A stretch of 32,861 bases of DNA from Rubrobacter sp. Lineage in GTDB: Bacteria > Actinomycetota > Rubrobacteria > Rubrobacterales > Rubrobacteraceae. Under the pieces are notes generated by a model. The model searched no databases, was not told the DNA's origin, and worked only from the letters and a program-made list of their open reading frames with translations. The stretch spans positions 1 through 32,861 of the forward strand of contig JADDPM010000002.1 in NCBI GenBank assembly GCA_016781885.1, given 5' to 3'. The translations under genes were made by a program, and so were the position numbers. Shown here in pieces: positions 20,824 through 31,049 of the stretch (position 1 is its first letter; every line of letters starts with the position of its first letter).

Positions 20824-22668
20824 TTACTTGTCATGTTGAGTACCGAGCGGGAGCTCCACGGAGAAGGTGCTGCCGCGGTCTGGCTCGCTCTGGACGCGGA
20901 TATCACCGCCGAGGTGGTGGGCGATCTCGCCGGCCAGGGCGAGGCCAAGGCCGGTACCGTCGGCGCGGGAGGAGCCCTGGGCGCGGTAGAAGCGCTCGAA
21001 GATATGCGGTATCTCGGTCTCGGGGATGCCGCAGCCGCGGTCGGCGACGCTTACGAGGGCGTGGCCGTTCTCGCGGTGCAGGTCGATCTCCACGGGTTCG
21101 TAGCCTTCACGCCCGCCCGAGTACTTGAGGGCGTTGTCGAGGAGGATGGCGAGCATTCGGTGGAGTTGTATGGGGTCTGTCCTCACGGGCGGGACGCCGT
21201 CTTCGGCATGAATACGGATCTCGCGTCCCGTGTAGGCGAAGTCCCGCCTCAACTCGTGCAGCAGGTCTTCCAGGTCCACCTCTTCGAGGCGGAAGGTTAC
21301 GGCATTCGCGTCGAGGCGGGAGAGGTCGAGGAGGGTGCGGGCGAGGTTCTTCAGACGCTCGGTCTGCGCGCGCATGTCTTCGAGGAAGGTCTTGCGGACC
21401 GTCTCATCCTCCTCATCTTCGAGCATCTCCAGGTAGCCTGAGAGGGCGAAGAGGGGGGTTTTCAGTTCATGGGAGGCGTTGGCGATGAACTCGGCCTTGG
21501 CGCGTTCGATCTGGCGCTGCTCGGTGACATCGCGCAGGATGGCTAGAGCGCCGTCTTCGAGGGGGGCGGCCCGGACCTCGATAATCCTATCCCCCGCCCG
21601 GACCTCGGGTTCGGTGATCGGACCGGAGAAGCGGCTCTTCGCGAGGACCTGCTGGAGGCGTTCGTGGAACTCGGGGTCGGAGTTATCAAGGAGCTCGCGA
21701 GCGCGGAGGTTTAGGAAGGTGGCGTTCAGGTCTTGATCCACGCCGACCACCGCGTCGGTCATGCCATCGAGGATCACCTGGCTGCGAGCCTTCTCCTGCT
21801 GTGTCTGCCGGAAAGCGCCCTTCAGGGAGGACGCCATCGCGTTGAACGTCTCGCCTAGAGAGCCTATCTCGTCCTCGACGCTGGTGGTGATGCGCTCCTC
21901 GAAGTTGCCGGCGGCGAGACGGCGGGCGGCTACGTCGAGGCGGTTCAGACGGCGGGCAAGCAGGTTCGCCACCACGTACCCGGAGAAGCCGGCGATCAGG
22001 AGCGCCAGAGCCCCCGCGAGCAAAGCTAGGTTGTTTATCCTTCTAAGGTCCGAGTCGGCGGTGGAGATGTCGCTCTCGGTGTAGTATCTAGTAAAGATGA
22101 GTGCGGTCTCGGACTCGCCAGGCACCTCTACCGGGGCGGCGTAGGTCGCGAGCGTCTGGCCCTGACGTTCGCCGCTCTCGACCTCCCTGAGCTCTGTGTC
22201 AGGCCTCCCCTGGGCCAGGGCAGTCTGCACGGCCACCAGGTTGTAATCGACCGCATCTCCCATAAGAACCTCGCTGTCCGCAATTCGGACTATACTCCAG
22301 TTCAGGCCCCGGGTGATCGCATAGGTGTTTATGAACTGCTCGTCCAACTGAGGAGTTTTCTCTATATAATCCTCCAGGTTCTCGAACGCCATGTTGAAGC
22401 TCGCCTCGGCGGACTGCTCCAGGATATGTTCGAGCCGGGGGTAGATGATCGAGTACGCCGTTCCAGCGGCGAACGCGGTCACGAACAGAAAGAGCAGGGT
22501 GAGCCAGACCTGTATGCTCACGCGGGAACGCAGCAGACGCGCCCCAAGCTTTCTCGGCCAAGTTAAAATCACCTGCTCGGGACGGCTGCTCTGTTGGGGG
22601 AGGCGGACGCCAAGGGCGTCCCGGGGCTTCTTGCGTTTCGGGAGTAGCCGGTCCCTAACGGAAAACAT
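20824..22668 (-). CDS. sensor histidine kinase (2 TM, HAMP, PAS, HisKA, HATPase)
   Basis: Likely start MFSVRDRLLPKRKK at 22668; FIANASHELKTPLFALSGYLEML H-box; RGCGIPETEIPHIFERFYR; GTGLGLALAGEIAHHLGG. Confidence 0.93.
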   Translation of the reverse strand: MFSVRDRLLPKRKKPRDALGVRLPQQSSRPEQVILTWPRKLGARLLRSRVSIQVWLTLLFLFVTAFAAGTAYSIIYPRLEHILEQSAEASFNMAFENLEDYIEKTPQLDEQFINTYAITRGLNWSIVRIADSEVLMGDAVDYNLVAVQTALAQGRPDTELREVESGERQGQTLATYAAPVEVPGESETALIFTRYYTESDISTADSDLRRINNLALLAGALALLIAGFSGYVVANLLARRLNRLDVAARRLAAGNFEERITTSVEDEIGSLGETFNAMASSLKGAFRQTQQEKARSQVILDGMTDAVVGVDQDLNATFLNLRARELLDNSDPEFHERLQQVLAKSRFSGPITEPEVRAGDRIIEVRAAPLEDGALAILRDVTEQRQIERAKAEFIANASHELKTPLFALSGYLEMLEDEEDETVRKTFLEDMRAQTERLKNLARTLLDLSRLDANAVTFRLEEVDLEDLLHELRRDFAYTGREIRIHAEDGVPPVRTDPIQLHRMLAILLDNALKYSGGREGYEPVEIDLHRENGHALVSVADRGCGIPETEIPHIFERFYRAQGSSRADGTGLGLALAGEIAHHLGGDIRVQSEPDRGSTFSVELPLGTQHDK

Positions 22669-23362
22669 ACCCGACACCCCGGGCGGTATGGATGAACTCG
22701 GGGTTCCGGGGGTCGCGTTCGATCTTCTCGCGGAGGTGGCGGATGTGGACGTCCACGGTACGCTCGTCGCGGAACTCATCGCCCCACACCCTTGTCAAGA
22801 GCGTGCTGCGTGAGAACACCCTGCCCGGGTTGGAGGCGAGCGTCACGAGAAGCTCGAACTCCGTGTACGTAAGGTCTACCTCCTCGCCGACGACCGCGAC
22901 CCGACGGCTCGGCAGGTGTATCTTCAGACCGTCGTAGGAGAGCTCGTCCTGGCGCTGTCCTGCGGGCACGGAGACGCGGCGCATGATCGCGCGCACCCTG
23001 GCGACGAGCTCCCTGACCGCGAAGGGTTTGGTGACGTAGTCGTCGGCCCCGAGCTCCAGGCCCACGACTCGGTCGATCTCGTCGTCTTTGGCGGTGAGCA
23101 TGATGATCGGAACGTCGCTCTGCGCCCGGATCCTTCGACAGACCTCCGTACCGTCAATCTTGGGCAACATGATGTCCAGGATAATTAGGTGCGGCTCGTA
23201 GGACTCGAACGCCTCCAGCGCCGCCTCTCCGTCCCCCACCGCATGGACCTGGAAGCCCTCCCGCTCCAGAGCGTGCACGAGCATCTTCTGGATCGAGGGC
23301 TCGTCGTCCACCAGAAGTATCCTGCGAGTGGTTCCCTGTACGCCCTGTGCCATATCTGACAA
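22655..23362 (-). CDS. OmpR/PhoB-family response regulator
   Basis: RILLVDDEPSIQKML, LIILDIMLPKIDG, GADDYVTKPFAVRELVARVRA, winged helix ending DVHIRHLREKIERDPRNPEFIHTARGVGYVFR; overlaps the kinase start by 14 nt. Confidence 0.96.
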   Translation of the reverse strand: MSDMAQGVQGTTRRILLVDDEPSIQKMLVHALEREGFQVHAVGDGEAALEAFESYEPHLIILDIMLPKIDGTEVCRRIRAQSDVPIIMLTAKDDEIDRVVGLELGADDYVTKPFAVRELVARVRAIMRRVSVPAGQRQDELSYDGLKIHLPSRRVAVVGEEVDLTYTEFELLVTLASNPGRVFSRSTLLTRVWGDEFRDERTVDVHIRHLREKIERDPRNPEFIHTARGVGYVFR

Positions 23363-23411: not shown

Positions 23412-25223
23412 TCATGCTCCGGCGGTCGCCCCCGTCATCCTACCAGCTACTCTCTCCACGGCCTCCGTAAGGCCCCCAGGCTCCCACAGACGCACCACCT
23501 CGACAGGGGCCTGGCGTCGCCTGAGGTACGCGGCGACGACCCGGGCCTCGTCTGCGCCCTTCCCGCCGGAGGGCGGCCCGGGGTTGGAGAGGACTTCTTC
23601 GGCGAAGAGGGTAAGGCCGGCCGTATCGCCGGGCTCGAAGCCCGCGTGGGATACGAGGCGGCCCTCGGCGAGGGCGAAGACCTCGATCATGCCGGGTTCG
23701 GTCGAGGGGGCGACGACCGCCTGAACGCCCCCGGCGCTCACGATGGCGCGCGTCAGACGGATGCGCTCGATGCCGGAGATCAGGTCTCGAAGCCGGGCAG
23801 CGGCCTCGAACTCCAGCTCACCCGCCAACCGCTTGCGCTCCTCGACTAGCGCCATCAGGTGCTCCTCACCGCCCTCGCCGCGCATGAGGGACGCGAGGCC
23901 CCCGATCACCTCGACCCGGTACTCCTCCTCGCTCATCCCGAGACAGGGGGCACAGCGGCCCATCTGTCCGTAGAAGCAGACACCTTCCTCGGGATCGCCG
24001 GAGCAGCACCTGAGGGGGAAAATTCTGCCGAATGCTTCGATACAGGTGTCTAGCACGCTCGCGCTCCGGTAGGGGCCAAGGTAGGTTACACCGTTCCGCG
24101 GACTGTTCTCCGGCGACCTCTCCGGGATGGGGTAGGGCTCGTTGAGATCCAACCTTATAAACCAACTCGCCTTCTCACCCCTTCCGGCGGAGTTGTAGCG
24201 CGGGAGGAGGCGCTTTATCTCGCGGGCCTCGAAGATCAGGGCGTAGAGCTCGCTCCTGGTCTCCTCGTAGCGCACCTCGGCGACCTCGCGCACGAGGCGA
24301 CCGATCTTGCGCCGCCCGTCCCCACCGTTGAAGTACGTCCTCACACGCGCCTTGAGGTCCTTCGCCTTGCCGACGTAGAGGACCGTTCCCCCTTTATCCA
24401 CGAAGTAGTAGACGCCCGGCGTGCGCGGGAGATCTTCGGCGAGGTGTCCTTTCTGCGGTTTGATCCTCACGCCCGACTTCTTCAGCGACGACGCCTCCCC
24501 CACGCTCTTCACCCCGGCCGAGGAGAGCAGCTTCGAGAGCTTGAGGAAGACTTCAGCGGTCGCCGCCGCGTCGGCGAGAGCCCTATGGTTCGGCGCCGCC
24601 CGCACCCCAAAATGCGAGACGAGCGAGGCGAGCCGGTACCGCTTGAGACCCGGCACGAGCGCTCGCGCGAGCTTCAACGTGTCGAGGACGGGGTTCGGGA
24701 GCGGCGGGAGCCCGTTGGCCACGCGTGCCGCCGCGACGAACGCGCAGTCGAACTGGACGTTATGACCGACGAGTACGCACCCCTCGACAAACTCCTCGAA
24801 GAGAGGCATGACCTCCGCGGCCGCCGGCGCGTCGGCGACCATGCGGTCGGTGATCCCGGTGAGCCGGACGACGAACGGCTCTATCCTACGTCCCGGGTTT
24901 ATCAGAGTAGCGAACTCGTCCACCACCTGCCCGCCGACGACCTTGAGCGCCCCGATCTCCGTAATAGCGCCCTTCTCCGCCGATGAGCCCGTGGTCTCGA
25001 CGTCGAAGACCACGTATGGCGCGTCGCCTAAAGGCAGGGAAGCCGCGTCCACGATCCGCAGAGATCCCTCTTCCCATAGAAAGCGTGGGTCGTTGGCGGT
25101 TAGCTCACCGACGAGGGAGTGCGCGTCACCGTTGGGGTGTGGTAGGGCGAGGAACTCTCGGGCGACCTCCTCGGGCGTTACGGGCTCGTGACCCTTGACG
25201 AAGCCGTAGAGGCTAGGGGACAC
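23412..25223 (-). CDS. DEDDh exonuclease fused to GIY-YIG/UvrC N-terminal-like nuclease
   Basis: Likely GTG start at 25223 (VSPSLYGFVKGHEP). YVVFDVETTGSSAEKGAITEIGALKV, GHNVQFDCAFV, HRALADAAATAEVF; LPRTPGVYYFVDKGGTVLYVGKAKDLKARVRTYF; UVR-like LAGELEFEAAARLRDLI. Confidence 0.93.
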   Translation of the reverse strand: MSPSLYGFVKGHEPVTPEEVAREFLALPHPNGDAHSLVGELTANDPRFLWEEGSLRIVDAASLPLGDAPYVVFDVETTGSSAEKGAITEIGALKVVGGQVVDEFATLINPGRRIEPFVVRLTGITDRMVADAPAAAEVMPLFEEFVEGCVLVGHNVQFDCAFVAAARVANGLPPLPNPVLDTLKLARALVPGLKRYRLASLVSHFGVRAAPNHRALADAAATAEVFLKLSKLLSSAGVKSVGEASSLKKSGVRIKPQKGHLAEDLPRTPGVYYFVDKGGTVLYVGKAKDLKARVRTYFNGGDGRRKIGRLVREVAEVRYEETRSELYALIFEAREIKRLLPRYNSAGRGEKASWFIRLDLNEPYPIPERSPENSPRNGVTYLGPYRSASVLDTCIEAFGRIFPLRCCSGDPEEGVCFYGQMGRCAPCLGMSEEEYRVEVIGGLASLMRGEGGEEHLMALVEERKRLAGELEFEAAARLRDLISGIERIRLTRAIVSAGGVQAVVAPSTEPGMIEVFALAEGRLVSHAGFEPGDTAGLTLFAEEVLSNPGPPSGGKGADEARVVAAYLRRRQAPVEVVRLWEPGGLTEAVERVAGRMTGATAGA

Positions 25224-26250
25224 GAACCTCCATCCGTTCGAGGTTCTCGCTCTTCGCCGCGGCCTCGGCGATGGTACGGGCCTGGGCCTCGGTGATGCCG
25301 GGGATGCCCACAAGGTTCTCGTAGGTGTACTCGGAGTCGAACAGGCCGCTGGCGAGCACCCGGGCGCGAGTCTTCGTGCCGATTCCGGGGAGCTTGGTGG
25401 TATGAAAGAGTTTGCCGCGCTGTATTCGCAGGGCGGGCACCCCGGCCAGCCTCTCACCCTCGATAAGGACGCGCCGCAGAACGTCGGCGAAGAGCGCTAC
25501 CTGCTCCGGGTAGTAGACGCTCCGGCCCATGAGGGACGGGGTCATCGGCAGCGGGTGCGAGAGGTTCGCGTTGCGGACCGTGGTGTGACCCGGCGGCTCG
25601 TTCGGGCCAAGGGGATCCGGGTCGCCCAAAGATTGGGCCCGGACCGCATGCGCAACGGCCTGCTCTTCGAGGTCCCCATCGAGGTCGAGCTCCGTAAAGA
25701 CCGGCGCGCCCCGGAAGCGATCGTTGCGGTTGGCGGCATAGAGGAAGCGGCGGGGGCTGCGCTCGTTCTTATAGAACTCGACCACCGCGTGCGCCCGCTT
25801 CTCCCCGAGCCCGGGCAAGCGCGCTAGCGATTTCGCGTCCTCCGTCTCTATCATCTCCCTGAGCTCGTCCGGGTCTATCGCCTCGGCGGCCTTGGCGGCT
25901 GCCCGCTTGTCCACACCACGGACGCGTTCGAGGATGCCCTGGACGCTCGCGGGGTCCATACAGCGCCTGAGGTGGTTGATCTTTCGCACCGCCGTGAACT
26001 CGTTGTGCTCCTCCCAGCGCCACACGAACTCCCGGACCCGCTCGACCGCCGCCGCGTCCTCGGGGACGAACTCTATCGTCACCGCCTCGCCGATGTAGCG
26101 GCCGTTGGCCCCCGGCAGTTGCTCGGCGGAGGACTGGACCTGCACCTTGACCATCGGAGAATAGAACGAGAAGTGTACGGGAACGCCCGGCGCGACCTCC
26201 TTCATCAGGCGGCGCCGGAAGACGTTGTCCTCGAAATCAGACTCGAACAT
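25213..26250 (-). CDS. RuvA-like helix-hairpin-helix DNA-binding protein with additional C-terminal HhH
   Basis: AIDPDELREMIETEDAKSLARLPGLGEKRAHAVVEFYKN resembles RuvA domain II; second HhH LVGIPGITEAQARTIAEAA; overlaps the nuclease gene by 11 nt. Confidence 0.7.
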   Translation of the reverse strand: MFESDFEDNVFRRRLMKEVAPGVPVHFSFYSPMVKVQVQSSAEQLPGANGRYIGEAVTIEFVPEDAAAVERVREFVWRWEEHNEFTAVRKINHLRRCMDPASVQGILERVRGVDKRAAAKAAEAIDPDELREMIETEDAKSLARLPGLGEKRAHAVVEFYKNERSPRRFLYAANRNDRFRGAPVFTELDLDGDLEEQAVAHAVRAQSLGDPDPLGPNEPPGHTTVRNANLSHPLPMTPSLMGRSVYYPEQVALFADVLRRVLIEGERLAGVPALRIQRGKLFHTTKLPGIGTKTRARVLASGLFDSEYTYENLVGIPGITEAQARTIAEAAAKSENLERMEVRVP

Positions 26251-26296
26251 CAGGACTAGATTTTACCACCAGCACTATCCTCGACCCTGTAAAAGA

Positions 26297-27541
26297 TCAA
26301 GCCCCACCGCCGAGCAGGACTTCCTCGCGCAGCACTATCGCCTCGACCGGCTCGCCTGCCTGCAGACCCTCTGACTCGGGCCCGATAAGCGCCAACGCGT
26401 CGGCTTTGGTGAGCGAACTAACGAGCCCCGACCCCTGCGCGCCTACGGACTCGGCTCTCCAGCCCTTCTCCGTTCGTTCCAGGGTCACCCGCATCGCGTG
26501 CATGCGGCCGAACTTGTTCTCGACGTCCTCGTCGAAGTAGACTTGTATGCGCAGACGGCGCACGTCCTCGCGGCCCGTCATCCGCATGAGTGCGAGCCGG
26601 ACGAAGAGCTCGAAACAGACCATCGCGGAGACGGGGTTGCCGGGGAGGCCGAAGAAGCGGGCGTCCTCCCGCGCGCCGAAGAAGACCGGCTTGCCCGGCT
26701 TGAGCTTGACCCCCCAGAAGATTTGCTCGACCCCGAGGTCGAGGAGCGTGCCCTTGACGAGGTCCTTCTCGCCGACGGAGACGCCGCCGCTCGTAACCAC
26801 TACGTCGGCTGTCGTGAGAGCTTCCTGCATCGCGGCGCGCAAGGTCTCGGCCTCGTCGGAGGCTGCGTGCATGCGGCGGGCGTCTGCACCAGCTTCGAGG
26901 GCCTGGGCGAGCAGGGCGAAGGAGTTGGAGTCGAAGATCTCACCAGGCCGGAGGTCGCGCGTACCGGGTTCGACCAGCTCGGTGCCGGTCGAGAGCACGA
27001 CGACCTTCGGTCGCCGGTACACCGGCAGCTCGCCGTAGCCCTGGGCGGCGGCGAGCGCGATCTCGGGGGCACCTATCTCGGTACCGGCGCGCAGCATCAC
27101 GTCGCCCTCGCGCACGTCCTCGCCGCTTCGGCGCAGGTTGTTGCCCGCCTTGGTCGGCTTCTTGAGCTCGAACTCCTCACCCCAGCCGGAGGTGTTCTCG
27201 ACCATCACGACCGCGTCGGCGCCCTCGGGCATCACGCCGCCCGTAAAGATCTTGATGGCCTCCCCCTCCCCCACCTCCTTCCGCGCCGGGCGCCCCGCCG
27301 GAGCCTCATCTACAACTTTGAAGGTGCGTCCGGCCTCTCTCGCGTCCACACTCCTGACGGCGTATCCGTCTACAGCGGAGTTGTCGAACGGCGGCGAGTC
27401 AAACCTCGCCCGCAGGTTCTCGGCGAGCGCGAGCCCCCGTGCGTCCATCAGCGACACGTGTTCGACGGACAGGCGGGGGGTCTCCTCCAGCACTAGCCGC
27501 ACTGCCTCCGCGTGATCTATGAGTCTCTCGAAGAGTTGCAT
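26297..27541 (-). CDS. moeA: molybdopterin molybdotransferase
   Basis: FDSPPFDNSAVDGYAVRS, FTGGVMPEGADAVVMVE, VLSTGTELVEPG, TSGGVSVGEKDLV, GLPGNPVSAMVCFELFV. Confidence 0.95.
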   Translation of the reverse strand: MQLFERLIDHAEAVRLVLEETPRLSVEHVSLMDARGLALAENLRARFDSPPFDNSAVDGYAVRSVDAREAGRTFKVVDEAPAGRPARKEVGEGEAIKIFTGGVMPEGADAVVMVENTSGWGEEFELKKPTKAGNNLRRSGEDVREGDVMLRAGTEIGAPEIALAAAQGYGELPVYRRPKVVVLSTGTELVEPGTRDLRPGEIFDSNSFALLAQALEAGADARRMHAASDEAETLRAAMQEALTTADVVVTSGGVSVGEKDLVKGTLLDLGVEQIFWGVKLKPGKPVFFGAREDARFFGLPGNPVSAMVCFELFVRLALMRMTGREDVRRLRIQVYFDEDVENKFGRMHAMRVTLERTEKGWRAESVGAQGSGLVSSLTKADALALIGPESEGLQAGEPVEAIVLREEVLLGGGA

Positions 27542-30284: not shown

Positions 30285-31049
30285 TTAGCCCTTCCGGAGA
30301 CGGTTAGCGACGGAGGCGAAGGCAGCTCTCTCGGCGGAGTCGTCAAGTGGTTCGAGCTCCGCGCGCTCGTCCACGCGACGCAGGGCGCCCAGGATGAGCT
30401 GGTCGGTGAGCCAGGGGTTCTTGGGGAGAAGCGAGCCGTGCAGGTAGGTGCCGTAGGCGTTGAGGCGGCGCGCACCCTCGGTGCCGTCGCGGCCGTTATT
30501 GCCGTAACCTACTATCACGTCCGCGAAGGGCTCCGCGTCCTCGGCCAGCTCGGTGCGACCGCCGTGGTTCTCGAAGCCGGCGACCTCGCGGACTACGCGA
30601 TCTTCCTCCGGGTCGCGGACACGGGCGAGGACGTTTCCGATCAGACGCACCTCGTCTCCTCTACGCGGCCTCGTGTACATGTCGAAGACGCCGATGCCGG
30701 GTAGCTTCTGCCCCTCCGGCGTCTCGTAGTAGTGGCCCATGAGTTGGTAGCCCCCGCAGACGCCGAGGATCACGCCCCCGTCCTCGACGATAGCCCGGAG
30801 GTCCGCGCCCTTCGTACCGGAGAGGTCCTCGACGAGGAGCGTCTGCTCTCGGTCCTGCCCCCCGCCGAAGAGGAAGAGGTCCGCGGAGGAGGTAGGACTT
30901 ATAGGCTCGCCGATCCCCACGTCCACGACTTCGACCGCGATACCGCGCCACTCGGCGCGCTTCTTTATGGCGATGACGTTCCCGCGGTCGCCGTAGAGGT
31001 TCATCATGTCCGCGTAGAGATGGTGGATGGTGAGCTTGATTTGTCCCAA
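30285..31049 (-). CDS. gatD: lipid II isoglutaminyl synthase glutamine amidotransferase subunit
   Basis: LTIHHLYADMMNLYGDRGNVIAIKKRAEWRGI, FLFGGGQDREQ, GVILGVCGGYQLMGHYYE (nucleophile Cys), YLHGSLLPKNPWLTD; TTG start with gggag RBS. Confidence 0.92.
   Translation of the reverse strand: MGQIKLTIHHLYADMMNLYGDRGNVIAIKKRAEWRGIAVEVVDVGIGEPISPTSSADLFLFGGGQDREQTLLVEDLSGTKGADLRAIVEDGGVILGVCGGYQLMGHYYETPEGQKLPGIGVFDMYTRPRRGDEVRLIGNVLARVRDPEEDRVVREVAGFENHGGRTELAEDAEPFADVIVGYGNNGRDGTEGARRLNAYGTYLHGSLLPKNPWLTDQLILGALRRVDERAELEPLDDSAERAAFASVANRLRKG

Follow-up and report, generated by a model that had tools for sequence, protein, structure and literature searches.

An apparently Rubrobacteria-specific HhH protein encoded in a putative dicistron with a Cho-like+Exo nuclease

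Helix-hairpin-helix (HhH) units are found across many unrelated DNA-binding proteins. In a Rubrobacter sp. window of 32,861 nucleotides (the whole stretch of DNA that was analysed), the gene of one such protein overlaps that of a nuclease related to UvrC, which raises the question of whether the two products act together and whether the pair is something new. The initial annotation of this DNA answered yes to both, seeing in the HhH protein a subunit that provides DNA-structure targeting in trans, and our analysis partly supports that interpretation. The relevant features, all on the minus strand, are:

26297 to 27541, minus strand: moeA, conserved neighbour upstream of the pair
26260 to 26265, minus strand: TAAAAT, a TG-extended -10-like box 9 nt before the ATG of the HhH gene
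25213 to 26250, minus strand: HhH protein gene, 345 aa, ATG start; family limited to Rubrobacteria
25951 to 26250, minus strand: N-terminal domain of the HhH protein, residues 1-100, without known family
25759 to 25944, minus strand: HhH unit 1, residues ~103-164, RuvA domain II-like
25414 to 25758, minus strand: middle domain of the HhH protein, residues 165-279, without known family
25246 to 25413, minus strand: HhH unit 2, residues ~280-335, generic (HhH)2
25226 to 25231, minus strand: GGAGGT, Shine-Dalgarno-like, within the 3' end of the HhH gene, immediately ahead of the nuclease start; in 21 of 26 loci
25213 to 25223, minus strand: 11-nt overlap of HhH stop and nuclease GTG, its register constant among loci
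23412 to 25223, minus strand: Cho-like+Exo nuclease gene, 603 aa, GTG start; NF005906 / PRK07883 family
25026 to 25223, minus strand: N-terminal extension of the nuclease, residues 1-66 (~70 aa), Rubrobacteria only
24519 to 25025, minus strand: DEDDh 3'-5' exonuclease domain; D74, E76, D159, H213 and D218 invariant
24189 to 24437, minus strand: GIY-YIG endonuclease domain; G270, Y272, Y283, G285, R293, E332 and N344 invariant
23940 to 24008, minus strand: C4 cysteine cluster; C407, C416, C424 and C427 invariant
23763 to 23849, minus strand: UVR (UvrB-binding) motif, 23 bits in a C-terminal fragment (cut-off 21.5)

The 345-aa reading frame is present as first described, with an ATG start, and the middle portion that had been likened to RuvA domain II does resemble it. 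Residues 107-157 align to RuvA positions 77-127 of the NCBIfam model TIGR00084 with 37.5 bits, below that model's cut-off of 85 bits; unit 1 also matches RuvA domain II in a profile search of solved structures, and its predicted fold superposes on RuvA 7oa5 over 53 columns with an rmsd of 1.1 A and 34% identity. Pfam finds HHH_5 in two stretches (1.2e-10, 42 bits) as well as HHH (7e-9), and all 29 scanned relatives match HHH_5. The additional C-terminal HhH segment that had been claimed is real, at about residues 285-330; this second unit lies weakly nearest to the RuvA and RadA/Rad51 N-terminal HhH domains, and its hhalign comparison with UvrC was weak, the UvrC stretches used ending inside their HhH domain. 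The N-terminal ~110 aa, on the other hand, had been called beta-rich, and we find ~100 aa predicted at low confidence to be mixed alpha/beta. Pfam scans of this N-terminal domain (1-100) and of the middle domain (165-279) gave nothing convincing, and the whole model retrieved nothing from a fold library at E 0.001. Two of the four parts of the protein are without a fold assignment because the AlphaFold2 model, built from a 29-sequence alignment, is poor (mean pLDDT 59), with the N-terminal and middle domains at low confidence. Mean column identity across Rubrobacteria reaches 87% in the N-terminal domain, and the middle domain carries the near-invariant motifs EPPGHTT.R..N and PMTP.LM.R, which by their conservation look like a functional site of some kind. 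An internal duplication, with the N-terminal domain and unit 1 repeated as the middle domain and unit 2, was rejected (hhalign probability 4%).

Because HhH unit 1 resembles RuvA domain II both by sequence and by fold prediction, one may consider that the protein is simply a diverged RuvA, or else a piece split off UvrC. We regard this as very improbable, since canonical RuvA and UvrC, both over their cut-offs, are encoded elsewhere in 36 and 39, respectively, of the same 40 genomes, the N-terminal domain gives no alignment with RuvA, and Pfam does not find the UvrC RNase H domain in the middle one. RuvA domains I (OB) and III are likewise not detectable, so that the protein falls outside the RuvA family. 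Other origins were also rejected: there was no match among 50,697 phage or 72,556 plasmid records, a viral fold library gave generic HhH matches only, and in a search for defence systems PADLOC matched only the DEDDh fold of the nuclease, the HhH protein having just a weak 12.9-bit match to Cas3c.

What, then, is the partner? The nuclease, judging from its sequence, is of an already known kind. It scores 572 bits against NF005906, 'DEDD exonuclease domain-containing protein' (cut-off 495). Although the mechanical reading frame starts at 25457, we prefer the GTG at 25223 as its start because conservation begins there. Its DEDDh domain is fused N-terminally to a UvrC-type GIY-YIG domain, the C4 cluster and the UvrB-binding motif are kept, and the EndoV-HhH part is lost; the DEDDh, GIY-YIG and C4 residues are all invariant over 27 sequences. 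With neither a PF08459 nor an HhH match it is without the catalytic RNase H and HhH domains of UvrC, whereas the full UvrC of the same genome shows PF22920, PF08459 and HHH_5. Precisely this arrangement was classified in 2006 as an actinobacterial variety, Cho-like+Exo, having an N-terminal PolC-type exonuclease, a GIY-YIG domain, the Cys cluster and the UvrB-binding motif (class C4-UvrBb with N-terminal exonuclease) and lacking the EndoV-HhH part, i.e. a UvrC cut short ahead of its second nuclease domain and its HhH domain (PMC1564403). The HhH protein is new to the libraries searched; the nuclease has been described since 2006. We take Rv2191-type proteins to be Cho-like+Exo nucleases too. 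Alongside their full UvrC, Rubrobacteria have this nuclease as a second GIY-YIG protein of the UvrC type (24189-24437 region; locus L119).

The Rubrobacteria nuclease does differ from its relatives elsewhere, which have neither its ~70-aa N-terminal domain nor an overlapping HhH gene upstream. In a model of pLDDT 85 residues 5-57 of this extension form three helices and a beta hairpin, a predicted winged-helix-like arrangement, and Pfam finds nothing above cut-off in it. The Rubrobacteria copies have this extension and nine other actinobacterial copies do not, so that among the aligned nucleases it is confined to the one lineage in which the HhH protein occurs.

The two genes are closely bound to one another. 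The order moeA, HhH gene, nuclease gene holds at 30 of 30 Rubrobacteria loci, the HhH gene always directly upstream, and so the two genes are linked wherever the HhH protein occurs in the loci examined. The overlap is also as first reported, with the HhH stop (TAG) at 25213-25215 and the nuclease GTG at 25221-25223. This GTG is kept in 26 of 29 loci. One locus (L007) has an overlap of 8 nt, its HhH stop coming one codon sooner, and in three others (L008, L018 and L019) the GTG is replaced by GCG or GGG; there the sole nearby start-like codon is an in-frame ATT, well spaced after the GGAGGT, and rare initiation at ATT is possible.

Strong evidence in the upstream sequence points to a promoter belonging to the pair and to a leaderless transcript. 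In 29 of 29 loci a TANAAT hexamer stands 8-11 nt ahead of the HhH start codon (with TG in front in 20); the hexamer turns up just 36 times across 231,644 positions of the same loci and before none of 26 moeA starts. These 29 loci come from related genomes and are not independent events, although outside the box the intergenic sequence is highly variable. A box so close to the ATG implies a leaderless mRNA, and with its own promoter the pair is judged to be a transcription unit separate from moeA. No -35 element is evident, and a generic -35/-10 scan did not list the TAAAAT box. An extended -10 (TGnTANAAT) placed directly before an ATG, with no clear -35, may be a common arrangement in Rubrobacteria.

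The distribution of the HhH protein is narrow and, within its limits, complete. It is found in 22 of 22 near-complete Rubrobacteria genomes and in 38 of 40 overall; one genome (G014) has the nuclease and no HhH match, its contig breaking off ~280 bases beyond the GIY-YIG match. Full-length copies share 73-94% identity within Rubrobacteria, and the median pairwise identity is 75% for the HhH protein versus 68% for the nuclease. Outside this class, ~360 other actinobacterial genomes yielded no full-length relative, their sole matches being RuvA-like stretches of ~50 residues, and when the N-terminal and the middle domain were searched for with a profile of their own, neither turned up in the 226 other genomes scanned with each. 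A scan of 85,462 species genomes with two peptide patterns, which distant relatives in other phyla could escape, returned only Rubrobacter or Rubrobacteraceae records and unplaced actinobacterial bins. Judged by the libraries and literature that were searched, the HhH protein would thus be an undescribed, lineage-specific family, and we found no study of its pairing with a Cho-like+Exo nuclease in that literature. The initial annotation had suggested looking for neighbourhood conservation across Actinobacteriota, and outside Rubrobacteria the pair is not co-conserved (~360 genomes; 20 nuclease loci), which by that annotation's own standard counts against its reading: in 20 other actinobacterial genomes with the nuclease no HhH reading frame lies within ~4 kb of it, RuvA serving as positive control. 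Since the Cho-like+Exo family is widespread in Actinobacteriota without an HhH neighbour, an HhH partner is not needed in general, and the HhH protein and the winged-helix-like extension look like Rubrobacteria additions to a wider nuclease family.

How might the two proteins work? Together they hold the GIY-YIG, C4, UVR and HhH elements of UvrC; neither matches the catalytic RNase H domain, and whereas UvrC joins that domain and (HhH)2 in one chain, here the HhH element is on a separate protein and the pair is not a UvrC. That HhH is just the domain that the nuclease lost relative to UvrC supports our preferred reading, in which the HhH protein serves as an accessory subunit for DNA recognition and supplies the lost function in trans, a reading to which we give close to an even chance. 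The two genes would form one leaderless, translationally coupled dicistron for a two-protein DNA-repair nuclease module. UvrC and Cho nick 3' of the lesion; the nuclease here would nick by its GIY-YIG domain, and its DEDDh 3'-5' exonuclease could digest from an end. An earlier proposal for such enzymes has the GIY-YIG domain nick and the exonuclease digest from the nick through the lesion (cited in PMC1564403). The two HhH units may bind bent, bubbled or branched DNA, where the HhH protein would deliver or orient the nuclease, possibly through contact with the Rubrobacteria-only winged-helix extension. The fuller proposal, of a two-subunit repair nuclease in which the HhH protein targets the Cho-like enzyme to DNA structures independently of, or in parallel to, UvrABC and which may aid radiation resistance, is more doubtful, and we hold it only tentatively.

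For a pair linked so tightly one may also consider that the two proteins take part in one repair process without binding each other, the HhH protein acting alone on branched or damaged DNA and the operon merely co-regulating the two. HhH proteins often bind DNA alone, and members of the nuclease family elsewhere in the phylum do without one as a partner. Nor is there an excess of rate covariation: in a mirror-tree style test, which has little power within one class, the partial correlation of HhH-protein and nuclease distances given MoeA was 0.09, not above background. The tight coupling, universal in Rubrobacteria, and the lineage-matched extension of the nuclease speak against this, and we consider independent action a real, if minority, possibility. 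A further explanation is that the HhH protein belongs to another DNA transaction (replication, recombination or chromosome organisation) and that the neighbourhood is gene order inherited within one class. All compared genomes do come from one class, and moeA is equally syntenic, its distances correlating more with both the HhH protein and the nuclease. Yet the pair is set apart from moeA by its own putative promoter, and the genes overlap, with an internal ribosome-binding-type sequence, which makes mere inherited order unlikely.

The accessory-subunit reading has parallels in concept. In XPF-ERCC1 and SLX1-SLX4 (PMC8287910) alike the nuclease depends on its partner for activation or DNA-structure recognition, and SLX1 is, like the nuclease here, a GIY-YIG enzyme; the likeness does not extend to shown homology of the partners. 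Rubrobacter is extremely resistant to radiation and desiccation, and R. radiotolerans RSPS-4 is without lexA and without irrE, pprA and ddrA-D, the Deinococcus-specific factors looked for in it (PMC4148983). An HhH protein that is universal in the class, highly conserved and confined to it, and whose gene is coupled to that of a repair nuclease, makes a concrete candidate for a repair step peculiar to Rubrobacteria. The pair, for which a transcription unit of its own and the Rubrobacteria-only winged-helix-like extension are new here, also offers an experimentally simple route to the role and substrate finding of Cho-like+Exo nucleases, which are present in mycobacteria and many other Actinobacteriota.

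Two other observations concern the surroundings of the pair. Directly downstream of the nuclease, on the same strand, lie genes for an OmpR-type response regulator and a WalK/PhoR-like histidine kinase (20824-23362, minus strand), and at 30285-31049, also on the minus strand, there is a GatD-like lipid II isoglutaminyl synthase subunit that scores below its family cut-off.
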